From contig NC_013791.2 of assembly GCF_000005825.2 (NCBI RefSeq), forward strand, positions 3,720,001-3,784,000: a stretch of DNA of 64,000 nt, given 5' to 3'. The notes beneath the pieces were generated by a model. It was given only the letters and a program-made list of their open reading frames with translations. It searched no databases and was not told the DNA's origin. Positions 11,896 through 56,233 of the stretch are shown one piece after another (position 1 is the first letter of the stretch; each line of letters opens with the position of its first letter). Source of the stretch: Alkalihalophilus pseudofirmus OF4 (lineage in GTDB: Bacteria; Bacillota; Bacilli; Bacillales; Bacillaceae_D). The position numbers and the translations under genes are program-made.

Positions 11896-11986
11896 TATGT
11901 TAGAGGAGAATTGCCGCTCCTGAAATATGCTTCGCTTTCCGCGGTGAGCGAGTACCTGTAGTGGAGATCAACAATTACTGCAAGGG
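11896..11986 (-). repeat. Composite GC-rich repeat, internally deleted copy 1
   Basis: In reverse orientation this copy joins the outer end of module A (GAAATATGCTTCGCTTTCC) directly to the outer end of module B (reading GCGAGTACCTG to GGAGATCAAC). Everything between is missing, as if an intact B-A element had lost its interior. The left flank TGTTAGAGGAGAA matches the outer flank of copy 4 (40848-40875, reversed). Confidence 0.75.
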
Positions 11987-12051
11987 GACCCATTTTCCAG
12001 TGTATTTATTTCTGTTATGAGTGAAGACGATGAGAATGCTGCCGTGACGCC

Positions 12052-12100
12052 AGTGGAAAGCGTGTGCCTGCAGCGGAGATCAACAACCACTATAAGGGCG
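12052..12100 (-). repeat. Fragment of composite repeat, module B end
   Basis: GGAAAGCGTGTGCCTGCAG followed by CGGAGATCAACAACCACTAT matches the outer arm of module B (reverse orientation), 65 bases from copy 1. Confidence 0.65.
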
Positions 12101-21242: not shown

Positions 21243-21297
21243 ATGTGAATGAAAGTATGGGTATCTCGTTAGAACACAAAAAGCGACCCTTTCAGTA

Positions 21298-21623
21298 GTT
21301 GTTGATCTCCGCTGCAGGTACTCGCTTTTCCCGGGTGTCGGTGCCTTCCGCTACAACCAACGGAGGCAAGGTGTTGTATAGTACCCCCATTATAAGTAGC
21401 TTTTAAATGATCTCTAGCAGATGAACTCACTTTTATAATTTGCATTGAACCATAATTAAATCATTCCACTTAATAATTACACAAAGCAGTAACCAAGCGG
21501 ATGAAATATGTGGAGACTCCTGCGGTGCCTAGAGCAGGGCTGAGATCCCACAGGGCAAAAGCCCGAGGAAGCTCAGCAGCTCACCGCAGAAAGCGAAGCA
21601 TATTTCAGAAGCGACAACTATGC
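21298..21623 (+). repeat. Composite GC-rich repeat, copy 2 (B shortened, A intact)
   Basis: Module B (21299-21367) keeps both ends (GTTGATCTCCGCTGCAGG and GTGCCTTCCGCTACAACC) but has lost most of its middle. A 125-base AT-rich linker follows, then module A (21503-21606), a long hairpin bounded by GAAATATG and CATATTTC. The 500-base region between the ligase and azoR contains nothing else but the azoR terminator. Confidence 0.82.
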
Positions 21624-26623: not shown

Positions 26624-27502
26624 TTACGCTTGATCGACATAGAGTTTAATTAATGCTTGAGTTCCTGCATCTTCAAATCCGCGCGTCACTAGCTCCTCAT
26701 ACATTCCCTTAGCAAGTTTCAACCCCGGTGTATCAAGACCTAGTTCTTCTGCCGACTCTAGCGCAATTGTCATATCTTTCACAAAGTGCTTAATATAAAA
26801 CCCCGGCTCATAGTCTCCTGCTATCATACGTGGAGCTAGATTGCTAAGTGACCAGCTTCCTGCTGCTCCCCCGCCAATACTTTTAAGTACTAGATTTGGA
26901 TTCAGTCCTGCCTTATCTGCGTAACTAATTGCCTCTGAGACTCCTATCATATTTGTGGCTATCGCAATCTGGTTGACCATTTTTGTATACTGCCCCATTC
27001 CTGGTCCGCCTTGCAGTACAACATTCGTACCCATTGCCTGAAAAACAGGAAGTGCCTTGTTATAAGCTTCTTCGTTACCACCAACCATAATCGTTAAACG
27101 AGCTTCTCTTGCTCCAATGTCCCCGCCAGAAACAGGAGCATCAAGTGCGGTCATCTGATGTTTGTCAGCAGCTTCAGCAATCTCTTTTGCAAGAGTGGGA
27201 GATGAGGTCGACATGTCAATCAAGATGCTGCCTTCTCTTGCGTTATTAAGCAGCCCCTCTTCACCAAAATAGATTTCTTTAACCTCACTTGGAAACCCTA
27301 GCATCGTAATGATTACATCTGCTTTTTCTGCTGCTTCTGTGGCCGATTCACACCACGTACAGCCTTCTTCAATGAGATCTTCTGCTTTCGACTTGGTCCG
27401 TGTATAAGCATTCACTGAGAACCCTTTTTTCATTAGATTTTTAGCCATGCTTTTTCCCATAACTCCTAAGCCGATAAACCCAATTGATTTTACGTTATCC
27501 AT
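26624..27502 (-). CDS. NAD(P)-dependent beta-hydroxyacid dehydrogenase (YkwC-like)
   Basis: The 292-residue protein belongs to the 3-hydroxyisobutyrate dehydrogenase family. The Rossmann loop is GFIGLGVMGKSMAKNLMKKG, the substrate-binding DAPVSGGDIGAREARLTIM follows, and the catalytic Lys lies in YTKMVNQIAIATNMI. An Arg in NAYTRTKSKAEDL after the second strand suggests NADPH. It resembles B. subtilis YkwC; tartronate semialdehyde or similar short hydroxyacids are possible substrates. The start has AAAGGTGTG upstream. The 528 bases before it hold the repeat copy 3. Confidence 0.88.
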   Translation of the reverse strand: MDNVKSIGFIGLGVMGKSMAKNLMKKGFSVNAYTRTKSKAEDLIEEGCTWCESATEAAEKADVIITMLGFPSEVKEIYFGEEGLLNNAREGSILIDMSTSSPTLAKEIAEAADKHQMTALDAPVSGGDIGAREARLTIMVGGNEEAYNKALPVFQAMGTNVVLQGGPGMGQYTKMVNQIAIATNMIGVSEAISYADKAGLNPNLVLKSIGGGAAGSWSLSNLAPRMIAGDYEPGFYIKHFVKDMTIALESAEELGLDTPGLKLAKGMYEELVTRGFEDAGTQALIKLYVDQA

Positions 27503-27604
27503 TCAAACAACACACCTTTCGTATATGTCATCTATTCTCGATTTTTAGCAAAATTCCTTTTAAACACCTAAAAAGATTAGATTTATCTAGCAAAAGTGAG
27601 TAGC

Positions 27605-27982
27605 CCCTGCAATAATTGTTGATTTCCGCTGCAGGCACACGCTTTCCGCGGGCGGTCCGGAAGCCTCCTCGTCGCTTTGCTCCTGTGGGGTCTTCCCTGG
27701 CCACGCACATCCCGCAGGAGTCGGTGCCTTCCGCTCCAATCAACGGAGAAAGGATGTTGTTATGTTGCTCCCTCATTATAAGCAGCACTTAGTGAATAGA
27801 ACTGAGCCTATTAACTAAATCACTCCACTCCATTTTTGGAAAGAGCATTAACTCAGCGGATGAAATATGCGTAGACTCCTGCGGTGCCTAGAGCAGGGCT
27901 GAGATCCCACAGGGCTAAAGCCCGAGGAAGCTCAGCAGCTCACCGCGGAAAGCGAAGCATATTTCAGGAGCGGCAGCTATGC
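27605..27982 (+). repeat. Composite GC-rich repeat, copy 3 (most complete)
   Basis: Module B (27618-27744) runs from GTTGATTTCCGCTGCAGG to CCGCTCCAATCAAC. A linker of 117 AT-rich bases follows, with GGATGTTGTTATGTTG and CCTCATTATAAGCAGC near its left end and ACTCAGCGGATG at its right. Module A (27862-27965) begins GAAATATGCGTAGACTCC and ends GCGAAGCATATTTC. Both modules fold into long hairpins. A reading frame across module B on the minus strand is judged spurious. Confidence 0.85.
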
Positions 27983-27983
27983 A

Positions 27984-28015
27984 CAAAAAAAACGACCTAC
28001 ATAATGTAAGTCGTC
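27984..28015 (-). terminator. Terminator of the yclNOPQ operon
   Basis: On the minus strand ACGACTTACAT pairs with ATGTAGGTCGT and is followed by eight T. Confidence 0.85.
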
Positions 28016-28030
28016 TCCGTTATTTTACTA

Positions 28031-29065
28031 TTACTCAATTCCTGCTTTCACTTCTTCTACCATTTCAGATACAGCCGTTAATCCGCCGCTTGTGATGTAC
28101 CAGTTTACCGGATCTAGGTAAACAATATTTCCTTCTTCATATGCACGAGTTGTTTTGACTAACTCATTTTCAACCGTCTGCTGACCGGATGACTCACCGC
28201 CAACGACTGCCGCACGATCGATGACAAACAAGTACTCAGGATCTTGCTCTACAATGTACTCAAACGAAATATTCTGCCCATGGTTTGTTACCTCAATTGA
28301 ATCATCTGTCGGAGTTACTCCAAAGTCATCGTGAAGAAGACCAAAGCGAGAACCAGGACCATACGCGCTGATATCGCCATCATTAGCCATGATTAAAAGA
28401 CCGCTTGTTTCACTTGCTGTTGCTGTTTCATGCAACTCTTCGATTGATTCCTCAATTTCAGCTAATTTCTCTGCCGCTTCCTCTTCTTTTTCGAAGATTT
28501 CAGCTAAAGTCGTTACATTCCCTTTAAATGATTCTACATAATTTGTTGTATCGACACCCATAAAGATTGTCGGTGCGATTTCGTTTAACTCTTCGTACGC
28601 TTCTGCTGCACGGCCGCTAATAATAATCAGGTCCGGCTCCATTCCATAGATTGCTTCAAAATCAGGCTCAAATAAAGTACCTGCATTTTGATATTCTTCC
28701 CCTTTATACTTTTCAAGATAGTCAGGTACATTTTCTTGAGGCAATGCTGTCACATTTACACCTAATGTATCTAATGTATCAAGAACACCCATATCAAACA
28801 CAACAACCGTTTCAGGATTTTTAGGAACAACCGCTTCTCCTAAATCATGTGTAATAGTGACTTCAGACGCTTCTGAATCGGCATCACTATCTGCCTCAGT
28901 TTCTTCTGTATCTTCAGCCGCTTCTTCTGTTTGTTCTGCTTCTACATCAGCTGAAGCCTCTTCTGCATTGTCACTTCCGCACGCTGCAAGAACTCCTGCA
29001 AAGATTACTAATACGAACAGGAACATAATTGGACGTAATGACAATGAACGTAATGTTTTACTCAT
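28031..29065 (-). CDS. yclQ: Siderophore-binding lipoprotein (YclQ-like)
   Basis: The 344-residue product has a signal peptide with lipobox GVLAAC, then a 45-residue linker almost all Glu, Asp, Ala and Ser, then a periplasmic-binding-protein type III fold (VVVFDMGVLDTLDTLG, AGTLFEPDFEAIYGMEPDLI, DPEYLFVIDRAAVVGGES). In B. subtilis YclQ binds petrobactin and its precursors. The acidic linker is much longer than usual and would sit in the cell wall; such acidic surfaces are common in alkaliphiles. The ATG at 29065 follows GGAG at -8. It is last in the yclNOPQ operon, separated from yclP by 86 bp. Confidence 0.9.
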   Translation of the reverse strand: MSKTLRSLSLRPIMFLFVLVIFAGVLAACGSDNAEEASADVEAEQTEEAAEDTEETEADSDADSEASEVTITHDLGEAVVPKNPETVVVFDMGVLDTLDTLGVNVTALPQENVPDYLEKYKGEEYQNAGTLFEPDFEAIYGMEPDLIIISGRAAEAYEELNEIAPTIFMGVDTTNYVESFKGNVTTLAEIFEKEEEAAEKLAEIEESIEELHETATASETSGLLIMANDGDISAYGPGSRFGLLHDDFGVTPTDDSIEVTNHGQNISFEYIVEQDPEYLFVIDRAAVVGGESSGQQTVENELVKTTRAYEEGNIVYLDPVNWYITSGGLTAVSEMVEEVKAGIE

Positions 29066-29151
29066 CTTACCCACTCCTATATTTCTTTTTTTATTTATTT
29101 AATAGAATGACAGTTAATCATCCTTCTATTACAAAATGATAAACACTAGCC

Positions 29152-40376: not shown

Positions 40377-40877
40377 CCACTCCTGAAATATGCTTCATTT
40401 TCCGCGGGAGCTAGTAAGCCCCGCTCTACAAGAGGCTACCTAAAAAGTTTTCCCTACAGTGTGGTTGATTTCCGCTACAGGCACTCGCTTTCCGCGGGCG
40501 GTCCGGGAGCCTCCTCGTCGCATGCTCCTGTGGGGTCTCCCCTGGCCACGCACATCCCGCAGGAGTCGGTGCCTATAGCGAGGTCAACCGAGCGCGTAGG
40601 TTAATAAGTGGTTCCTCTCATTGAAAACAGGTGTTCAGTGACTTACCTTTTTTAGTGAAAATAATATAATTTGAGTTTCGATTGGTCTGATCGAAAACGA
40701 AATCATCCATTAAATTCTTTAAAAACCACGAAACCTAGCGGATGAAATGTGCGTAGACTCCTGCGGTGCCTAGAGCAGGGCTGAGATCCCACAGGGCCAA
40801 AACCCGAGGAAGCTCAGCAGCTCACCCCGGAAAGCGAAGCATATTTCAGGAGCGGCCATTCTCCTCTAACATATGTT
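40377..40877 (+). repeat. Composite GC-rich repeat, copy 4 (with an extra module A fragment)
   Basis: A reversed, decayed module A end (CCTGAAATATGCTTCATTTT at about 40382) precedes module B (40464-40588, GTTGATTTCCGCTACAGG to GAGGTCAAC). A linker of about 150 AT-rich bases contains the palindrome TTCGATTGGTCTGATCGAA (40676-40694). Module A (40743-40847) ends the element, flanked by AGGAGCGGCCATTCTCC. It fills the 592-base gap between cypC and phaC; no gene was found there. Confidence 0.83.
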
Positions 40878-45349: not shown

Positions 45350-45482
45350 TTTGAAGTCACTCCTTTGAACACCATTATAATGATTCTGTTTGAAAAGAGC
45401 GAAAATTTGACTTGATCTTCCAAACTTTCTCATGTTAGGATTTGGTTTGTAAGAGATTTTGTTTTAAAGAACTTAATAGCAT

Positions 45483-45581
45483 TAACTAGGGGTGTCCAAC
45501 GAGCTGGGCTGAGAGAAAAACGCGTTGAAGTTTTTTAACCCTTCGGACCTGATCTGGCTCATACCAGCGTAGGGAAGTTAG
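45483..45581 (+). promoter_or_regulatory. TPP riboswitch (THI box)
   Basis: All conserved pieces are present in order: ACTAGGGGTGTCC, GCTGGGCTGAGAG, a variable P3 extension, CCCTTCGGACCTGATCTGG and CTCATACCAGCGTAGGGAA. The ends TAACT / AGTTA close P1. It precedes a terminator and thiC, so thiamine pyrophosphate should stop transcription of thiC. Confidence 0.97.
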
Positions 45582-45625
45582 AGACTCCTAAGTATTTACA
45601 TGTCTATTTGACTACTTCTACATAG

Positions 45626-49451: not shown

Positions 49452-49745
49452 TGCCGCCGCTCCTGAAATATGCTTCGCTTTCCGCGGTGAGCTGCTGAGC
49501 TTCCTCGGGCTTTAGCCCTGCGGGATCTCAGCCCTGCTCTAGGCACCGCAGGAGTCTACGCATATTTCATCCACTAAGTACTGTCTTTGAAACGTATATA
49601 GTGGGATGCTTTCTATTTCGATCAGACCAATCGAATGATAAATTAATTAACTTTACTAAAAGTTAAGATCACTTAACAACTTCTTATAACAAGGGAGCAC
49701 TTTACAACGTCCTTCCTCCTTTGATTAGAGCGGAAATCACCCCCC
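49452..49745 (-). repeat. Composite GC-rich repeat, copy 5 (reversed; module B mostly lost)
   Basis: Module A (49465-49568) is intact and reversed, GAAATATGCTTCGCTTTCC to GCATATTTC. The linker includes TTTCGATCAGACCAATCGAA (49617-49636), the same palindrome as in copy 4. Only the outer flank of module B remains: GGGAGCACTTTACAACGTCC and TTTGATTAGAGCGGAAATCA. The rest of 49415-49889 shows no gene. Confidence 0.8.
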
Positions 49746-49889
49746 CCTGTCAGGATGGATACTTTTTGCAGTGTCTGCGTTTATTACCTGCTCCAGTTTT
49801 GTCTCAGCCATTTTATAAATCTAACTAGGAACATCTAATAGATTAAGGTATGATAGGTGGATCACTTACGTTAGAAAGGTTGTGGTCCC

Positions 49890-55643: not shown

Positions 55644-55695
55644 AAAAAAAGCCCGGGACATACTCTTTTCTAAAAAGAATATCTCCCGGGCTTTT
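55644..55695 (-). terminator. Expression-platform terminator of the guanidine-I riboswitch
   Basis: AAAAGCCCGGGAGATATTC pairs with GAGTATGTCCCGGGCTTTT on the minus strand around a T/A-rich loop and is followed by seven T. The AAAAGCCCGGG part also belongs to the conserved riboswitch 3' end. Confidence 0.92.
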
Positions 55696-55775
55696 ATCCC
55701 TCCGTGTCACAATTGGTTTCATTGTGGGTTTTCTCTCGGACCAGTCCAGCTGAATCGCTGCGGAACCCTAGAAAA
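55692..55775 (-). promoter_or_regulatory. Guanidine-I (ykkC) riboswitch
   Basis: On the minus strand the conserved pieces appear in order: CTAGGGTTCCGC (55771-55760), GGACTGGTCCGAGAG (55747-55733), a short variable arm, ACACGGAGGGATAAAAGCCC. These match the ykkC class. Guanidinium binding prevents the terminator and turns on the SMR pair. Confidence 0.95.
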
Positions 55776-56233
55776 CAACATGTATTCAATTGCCTACATT
55801 ATTTCAACTTCCCTTTTTAATGTCAACCGGAAAAAGTTAACTTCATTTATTTCTGCCTAGTTTATGGTATGCCAAACGCTTTAAAAAGAAGGTAATTGCT
55901 GTCATTTAGTCATTATATTTGTAAATATATTGAAATAACCAACTACTTCATTCTATCTTTTTACCAATAAATATAAAAAAAAGAAAAAATGTGTCCTTCT
56001 ATGCAGGTCATCTTACTAATTTTGAGTAAAACAAATAAAAATGTCCCTGTTTACATCCTTTGTGTCCCGGATGATGGTCTCTTGTTTACAGTAGAAAGGC
56101 TATGAAACAATAAAATTAATCAACAATCACCCTGTATAGACTGAGACATTTTAAACAGCAATGTTTAAAAAAGCTTCATTCGTGGTAAACAGTTTTGGTC
56201 AATACATACAGGAATCTTATGAGGAGTGATGAC
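55776..56233. other. AT-rich intergenic region before the SleB-like gene
   Basis: No gene is seen. The region is AT-rich and probably carries the riboswitch promoter on one side and that of the hydrolase gene on the other. GAGGAG at 56220-56226 is the ribosome binding site of the next gene. Confidence 0.4.

Follow-up and report, generated by a model that had tools for sequence, protein, structure and literature searches.

What kind of element is the G+C-rich block that lies between two open reading frames (ORFs) near 27.6 kb of this DNA, and why does it recur nearby? The window, i.e. the whole stretch of DNA that was analysed, consists of 64,000 nucleotides from Alkalihalophilus pseudofirmus OF4 (G000, here called the own genome), and the copies are given in window coordinates. 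The block comprises a module B, a linker and a module A. It spans 27605-27990 and falls in the gap between ORFs 26624-27502 and 28031-29074, which agrees with the intergenic placement reported in a first-pass annotation of this DNA. That annotation was also correct that the unit is richer in G+C than its surroundings (B 0.646 and A 0.580, with 0.382 in the linker, against 0.411 for the window). It listed five places in the window that carry the unit, in both orientations. The recurrence holds, but near-complete units are present only at 27.6 and 40.4 kb (Table 1).

Table 1. Coordinates of the repeat copies and other structured features within the window
Feature	Position	Strand	Evidence or remark
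Module B, 127-nt structured hairpin, closing stem GTTGATT/AATCAAC	27618-27744	-	Model R2, 158.6 bits in own genome; alignment A2; covariation
AT-rich linker	27745-27854	.	A-proximal half resembles left arm of stand-alone A element (by eye)
Module A, 119-nt structured hairpin, closing stem TGAAATATGC/GCATATTTCA	27855-27973	+	Model R1, 151.2 bits; alignment A1; covariation, 0/500 shuffles
Second copy, module B (matched by model R2)	40464-40588	-	
Second copy, module A	40737-40855	+	Model R1
Remnant, 3′ end of older A module, pointing outward	40377-40412	-	Adjoins second copy
Third copy, module A	21496-21614	+	Model R1
Third copy, module B	21293-21365	-	Internal deletion
Fourth copy, module A, full	49457-49575	-	Model R1
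Fourth copy, first 45 nt of module B	49712-49757	+	
Fused remnants only (11.9 kb)	11912-12086	.	A 3′ end (minus) and B 3′ ends (plus)
Linker variant with small hairpin around CGATCAGACCAATCG	40658-40708 and 49604-49654		Common to both copies
TPP riboswitch	45478-45592	+	Rfam
Guanidine-I riboswitch	55681-55782	-	Rfam

Two properties were overlooked in the annotation: the homology of A and B to each other, and their placement head to head in the composite, with 3′ ends outward. A model built from A (R1) matches the window's B module at E 6.3e-7, and a model built from B (R2) matches the window's A module at E 3.3e-8. Both modules also contain a common scaffold, GACTCC-GCGG ... GAGAYCCCACAGG ... 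CGAGGARGCTC ... CCGCGGAAAGCG. A and B are homologous and form one family. As to the nature of the repeat, we see an even chance that it is a non-autonomous element that targets hairpins, its own included, and is perhaps moved by IS1182-type transposases.

Copies, host range and whole elements

The repeat is not confined to the window. A 391-bp query has at least 73 matches in the own genome (best 40 of 82 candidates scored), and the two models find at least 108 distinct modules, some of them partial: 65 A and 43 B. The model searches scored the best 150 of 1295 and the best 150 of 671 candidates, such that these counts are lower bounds. Given 73 query matches and 108 modules in one genome, chance recurrence is excluded.

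The annotation regarded B, linker and A as one unit. For B in the own genome, this view is borne out: 34 of the 43 B modules occur within 450 nt of an A, all head to head (20 as B-A+ and 14 as A-B+), and 9 are alone. For A it is not, as 31 of 65 are unpaired. Nor does it apply to the examined loci of other genera, where A or B mostly occurs alone, so that the two modules are largely apart in those loci and in about half of the A cases within this genome. Locus L034 (G000:3345281-3346476) contains an array of four B modules, three of them truncated (period 124), and three A modules (period 217), and is a tandem amplification within one unit.

Matches to the B-type model R2 occur in at least 153 of 199 genomes and 78 of 97 genera of the order, with 17 candidates scored per genome. 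An A-specific pattern has, among its listed matches, 'Bacillus' suaedae, B. timonensis, Halalkalibacter hemicellulosilyticus, Litchfieldia salsa, Metabacillus litoralis, Tenuibacillus multivorans and an uncultured Bacillaceae. A single module is present in 17 of the 19 best R2 loci from other genera; the exceptions are L094, with an inverted second B-type module, and L097, with a weak second match. We also picked 27 A loci of other genera for taxonomic spread from at least 80 loci. In one of these (L343), B is clearly present no more than 500 nt from A, and two (L311 and L305) have a second module whose type is unclear.

Whole elements can be delimited around these A modules. Ends resembling GAGGCTGGGACA occur on both sides, with at most 3 mismatches, in 21 of the 27 A elements from other genera, and these 21 are 218-240 bp long. 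The six that were folded are essentially one hairpin (-71 to -100 kcal/mol). Flanks of A elements are A-rich on the left and T-rich on the right (0.54 and 0.58 against 0.34). No direct repeat abuts the ends in any of the 21. The own genome has a minimal A element of 226 bp at 590582-590807. Outside the own-genome units, the end motif is found in the expected, outward orientation at 7/40 left and 6/40 right flanks, compared to 0/80 in the wrong orientation and 11/480 in far windows. With the motif recognisable at only 13 of 80 flanks, most composite copies are without recognisable ends.

A further genome, G122, has four elements of 324-444 bp whose ends are different (GGCTCTTTTCG ... GAAAACAGCC, varying slightly). 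All four have 8-bp target duplications, one with a mismatch, as opposed to none of the 21 A elements, and these duplications point to a different transposase in G122. In two of the four (L239 and L240), an A-like module adjoins B. A search of 25 loci, which were unoriented and represented by one end sequence, found 8-bp duplications in two of the four G122 loci only. Being short, without a gene and bounded by terminal inverted repeats, the 21 A elements and the four G122 elements share these properties with MITEs. The annotation's proposal of a non-autonomous mobile element is thus well supported by whole elements with terminal inverted repeats, by the 8-bp duplications in one genome and by copies inside insertion sequences.

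Turnover at fixed sites

We anchored 40 unit sites of the own genome in two close relatives. All 40 could be placed in a genome of the same species (G002) and 39 in Alkalihalophilus marmarensis DSM 21297 (G001), where 11 of the 39 loci stop at contig ends, making absence or truncation uncertain there. In G002, 38 sites are occupied, 30 in the same orientation and 8 flipped, and 2 are without a module. The corresponding numbers in G001 are 27 the same, 8 flipped, 1 mixed and 3 in which no module was found. Sequence identity in the regions flanking the eight G002 flips is 94-99%. The 27.6-kb unit is itself flipped in G002, and its flanks are 97 and 96% identical. By eye, the stretch replaced in flips reaches near the outer ends of the unit. 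Regarding the module-less sites, L064 in G002 has what appears by eye to be an intact terminator hairpin, and L062 (G002) and L043 (G001) have no clean empty terminator.

In the comparison with G002, 22 of 45 same-orientation rows have their best match in the module at the orthologous site, against only 1 of 11 flipped rows; these flips are thus mostly replacements by other members of the family. For G001, the figures are 22 of 37 and 2 of 5, the latter of which fits inversion in place. We rejected inversion in place as a general cause of the G002 flips based on the 1 row in 11, but not for each individual case: L060 B in G001 and L054 B match their orthologue best although they are flipped, and may have inverted in place. 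Opposite directions at one spot in close relatives suggest that the elements keep landing in one another.

Truncated modules tell a similar story. Pooled over the three genomes, and including modules split by insertion sequences, they keep the 3′ part more often than not (25 vs 9 for A and 51 vs 5 for B). Where 3′ fragments lie beside full modules, they point outward in 18/18 cases in the own genome, 12/12 in G002 and 17/18 in G001, for a total of 47/48; ten fragments inside or beyond 400 nt were left uncounted, and fragments are partly orthologous between genomes. Nested insertion, with new units entering old ones, predicts such outward remnants, and they would accordingly derive from it. At L060, the A module is complete in the own genome; G002 and G001 retain its outer 29 nt, after which comes an oppositely oriented unit. 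Some of the outward fragments could also come from tandem duplication.

The same sites might instead descend from old arrays, i.e. from ancestral sites that held several units in both orientations, from which deletion, inversion and gene conversion left different survivors with no recent transposition. Multi-module arrays do exist, as in L034, and complete A modules point in both directions at L053 in G001. This is, however, the one site among 39 in G001 at which full modules of both unit orientations occur together, and there are none among the 40 sites of the own genome or the 40 of G002. The 23 of 45 same-orientation rows that also differ from their orthologue, the fused A/B junctions at shared sequence and the matches of L054 B and L060 B are consistent with such a history. 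Against it, 10 of the 11 rows flipped relative to G002 are not each other's best match, and transposition is evident elsewhere from whole elements that have ends and duplications. We regard this history as rather doubtful.

The preferred reading, in which a hairpin-targeting element lands among other hairpins, also concerns the choice of site. Genes around the 40 sites form 26 tandem, 13 convergent and 1 divergent pairs, whereas simple ORF calling in the window gives 27 tandem, 16 convergent and 15 divergent pairs. Tandem or convergent pairs therefore make up 39/40 sites against 43/58 in the window background, which places the repeat beside gene ends. The outer flanks of the 40 sites are no more complementary than permuted pairs when ungapped stems are considered, with 2/40 sites above the 95th percentile. 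A gapped duplex test around the units was also negative, and is an unsuitable test.

Covarying fold and insertion sequences

RNAalifold predicts one long interrupted hairpin for A, and likewise for B. In the alignment of all 38 A copies (A1), changes on both sides occur in 13 of 33 pairs. None of 500 shuffles equals the observed values, a count that is not a probability, and slid structures fail. Covariation was found in 8 of 37 pairs of B, using 32 copies; this alignment (A2) omits five degenerate or chimeric copies of 37, and the shuffle control applies to A only. Across the order, 11 of 33 pairs covary among 26 B-type modules. Single-sequence folding compared to shuffles yields z-scores of -2.6 (B) and -4.0 (A) on the module strand, and of -2.0 (B) and -4.3 (A) on the opposite strand. 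As the scores are low on both strands, folding does not indicate a strand. G-U pairs exceed A-C mismatches by 59 to 29 when counted by cell, which is suggestive of the strand; the excess by column, 32 to 21, is not significant, and the copies are not independent. No Rfam family was found over the unit using the gathering score for the whole window or E-values up to 1 for 27500-28100.

Modules also occur within insertion sequences. Genome G187 has a 1745-bp IS1182-like element in at least 8 copies, whose transposase has domain PF05598; the family name is our reading. Module B is located inside the element, with a terminator-like end on one side of it and the start of the transposase on the other. 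A B-type module is found in 6 of 30 loci with related transposases (L271, L273 weakly, L274, L288, L292 and L294), which belong to six other genera. In these six, it is ~36 to 104 nt upstream of the transposase and in divergent orientation. Two close relatives of the G187 transposase, L269 (92% identity) and L270 (88%), have a similar end and promoter but lack the module. The module is therefore an optional insert that is unneeded for movement, and it may itself have been inserted.

The annotation had also raised a structured RNA. Covariation supports the structure, and an RNA role is a candidate. Under this explanation, the module would be a functional structured RNA, either a regulator or a processed RNA, that was picked up by mobile elements. 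The covariation in A and across the order is in line with such a role, as are the G-U count by cell and the similar place upstream of a transposase gene in several genera. The column-wise G-U count, the insertion sequences that interrupt modules, the module-less transposase relatives and the lack of an Rfam family speak against it, and we consider it unlikely.

A REPIN consists of two inverted hairpins with a linker, and the composite resembles this arrangement. It is nonetheless highly improbable that the hairpins are moved single-stranded by a Y1 (RAYT or IS200/IS605) transposase: A elements do lack target duplications and 13 of 17 genomes examined have Y1 matches, but there is no Y1 match in G001, G002, G187 or G015, of which the first three are repeat-rich, the modules measure 119-127 nt compared to 20-40 bp for REPs (PMC3733652, in part), and the G122 copies have 8-bp duplications. 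With no Y1 match in these three repeat-rich genomes, the data already suggest continued amplification without it. ISL3 transposases were likewise rejected as movers, as neither they nor Y1 have a match in G001, G002 or G187.

We return to IS1182-type transposases, the possible movers in the preferred reading. A whole terminator hairpin is visible by eye on both sides of 6/8 G187 copies and of two IS1182 copies in the own genome; a third own copy has a whole hairpin on the one side that is readable. L245 and L247 (own genome) and L250-L255 (G187) are IS1182-like elements flanked, by eye, by two whole copies of a terminator hairpin, i.e. by a long palindromic target duplication. The three intact IS1182 copies of the own genome have no module match. 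In the two of these copies whose ends were read, the ends are CAGGCTGTTGAGAAA-like and do not match the GAGGCTGGGACA ends of the composite, although by eye the two are loosely alike. A search of the own genome with the end pattern, allowing at most 1 mismatch, revealed no autonomous partner that has the ends of the composite. The sole exact pair of ends ~2 kb apart (2806163-2808161) was discarded, because it is an A element with an IS110-type insertion and not a transposon partner.

The insertion sequences that interrupt modules are presumably of the IS3, IS1182 and IS110 types. Two copies of one element, which we take to be IS110-type (~451 aa in L205), have inserted near the ACTCC motif of A modules (L058 1934-3665 and L205, G000:2806227-2808150), suggesting that the repeat is the target of this element. 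Another element, assumed to be IS3-type, has inserted close to the apical loop of B modules at two different sites, L140 1311-2767 and L164 1104-2446 (G002).

Proposed mechanism and known systems

The mechanism that we propose starts from a basic A element of ~235 bp, in which terminator-like terminal inverted repeats (GAGGCTGGGACA) close one long hairpin with module A at its tip. In this genus, a B-type element would have entered the left arm of an A element, an origin of the composite that we infer by eye, and the resulting B-linker-A composite would then have spread. Structure, not sequence, would steer insertion to intrinsic terminators and other hairpins, for which reason either orientation fits. 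Because each copy is a set of hairpins, later copies would insert into earlier ones, with partial deletion of the latter. The position of a site would stay fixed, and its content would be replaced, truncated or flipped. Hairpins would thus be the target of these elements, and, by analogy, the cut may be supplied by an IS1182/IS1272-type transposase.

The analogy is to IS1272/TnSha1 of staphylococci, a member of the IS1182 family. It targets hairpin stems and terminators without sequence specificity, makes blunt cuts with partial deletion of the target and no duplication, and has inserted several times independently, in both orientations, into one terminator (PMC4923244, in part). The proposal resembles it in the hairpin or terminator targets, both orientations, partial deletion and missing duplication. 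As the repeat is itself a hairpin, IS1272-like behaviour could explain the lack of duplications around A elements, the flips and the nesting remnants. There are also differences: based on the same portion of that paper, IS1272 is autonomous, while the repeat is gene-less and itself a hairpin, and several IS1182 elements studied here have the whole hairpin on both sides, unlike IS1272.

A broader formulation is more tentative. Each copy of a self-targeting hairpin element could serve as the next landing hairpin, so that sites are near-fixed and content and direction turn over within a species. The covarying module could then be a portable end structure of unlike transposons across Bacillales, namely the GAGGCTGGGACA elements, the miniature elements that duplicate 8 bp and the IS1182-family elements.

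Other repeats share some of these properties. The bcr1 element of the Bacillus cereus group has a TTTAT duplication. MITEs of this kind and the repeat are all short, gene-less, intergenic, structured and high in copy number. The repeat differs from them in that its covarying module is common to elements with unlike terminal repeats, and in its apparent self-nesting and order-wide occurrence. bcr1 is named as a bacterial MITE in PMC2267715 and PMC3733652 (both in part). The SPRITE, BOX and RUP repeats of pneumococcus are like the repeat in being terminator-like (SPRITE), in clustering and in mutual insertion, but belong to another host, and the likeness is by description alone (PMC10969869, in part). 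Bhal-1, a stem-loop family of Bacillus halodurans with 36 copies of 74 bp, likewise consists of structured intergenic repeats in a related alkaliphile, and on this comparison by description alone may be related to the repeat (PMC2267715, in part). No published description of the repeat family was found in the literature searched, whose accessible part mostly excluded subscription papers.

The repeat occurs in at least 153 of the 199 genomes sampled from a well-studied order, yet has no Rfam match, and its module is a candidate for a structured RNA or DNA that belongs to transposons. If nesting is the right model, the repeat is a natural record of transposition directed by the shape of DNA or RNA, and not by sequence. 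The model would also explain how intergenic sites keep the element while its direction flips between strains, and the question of what hairpin-seeking transposases recognise would become directly testable.
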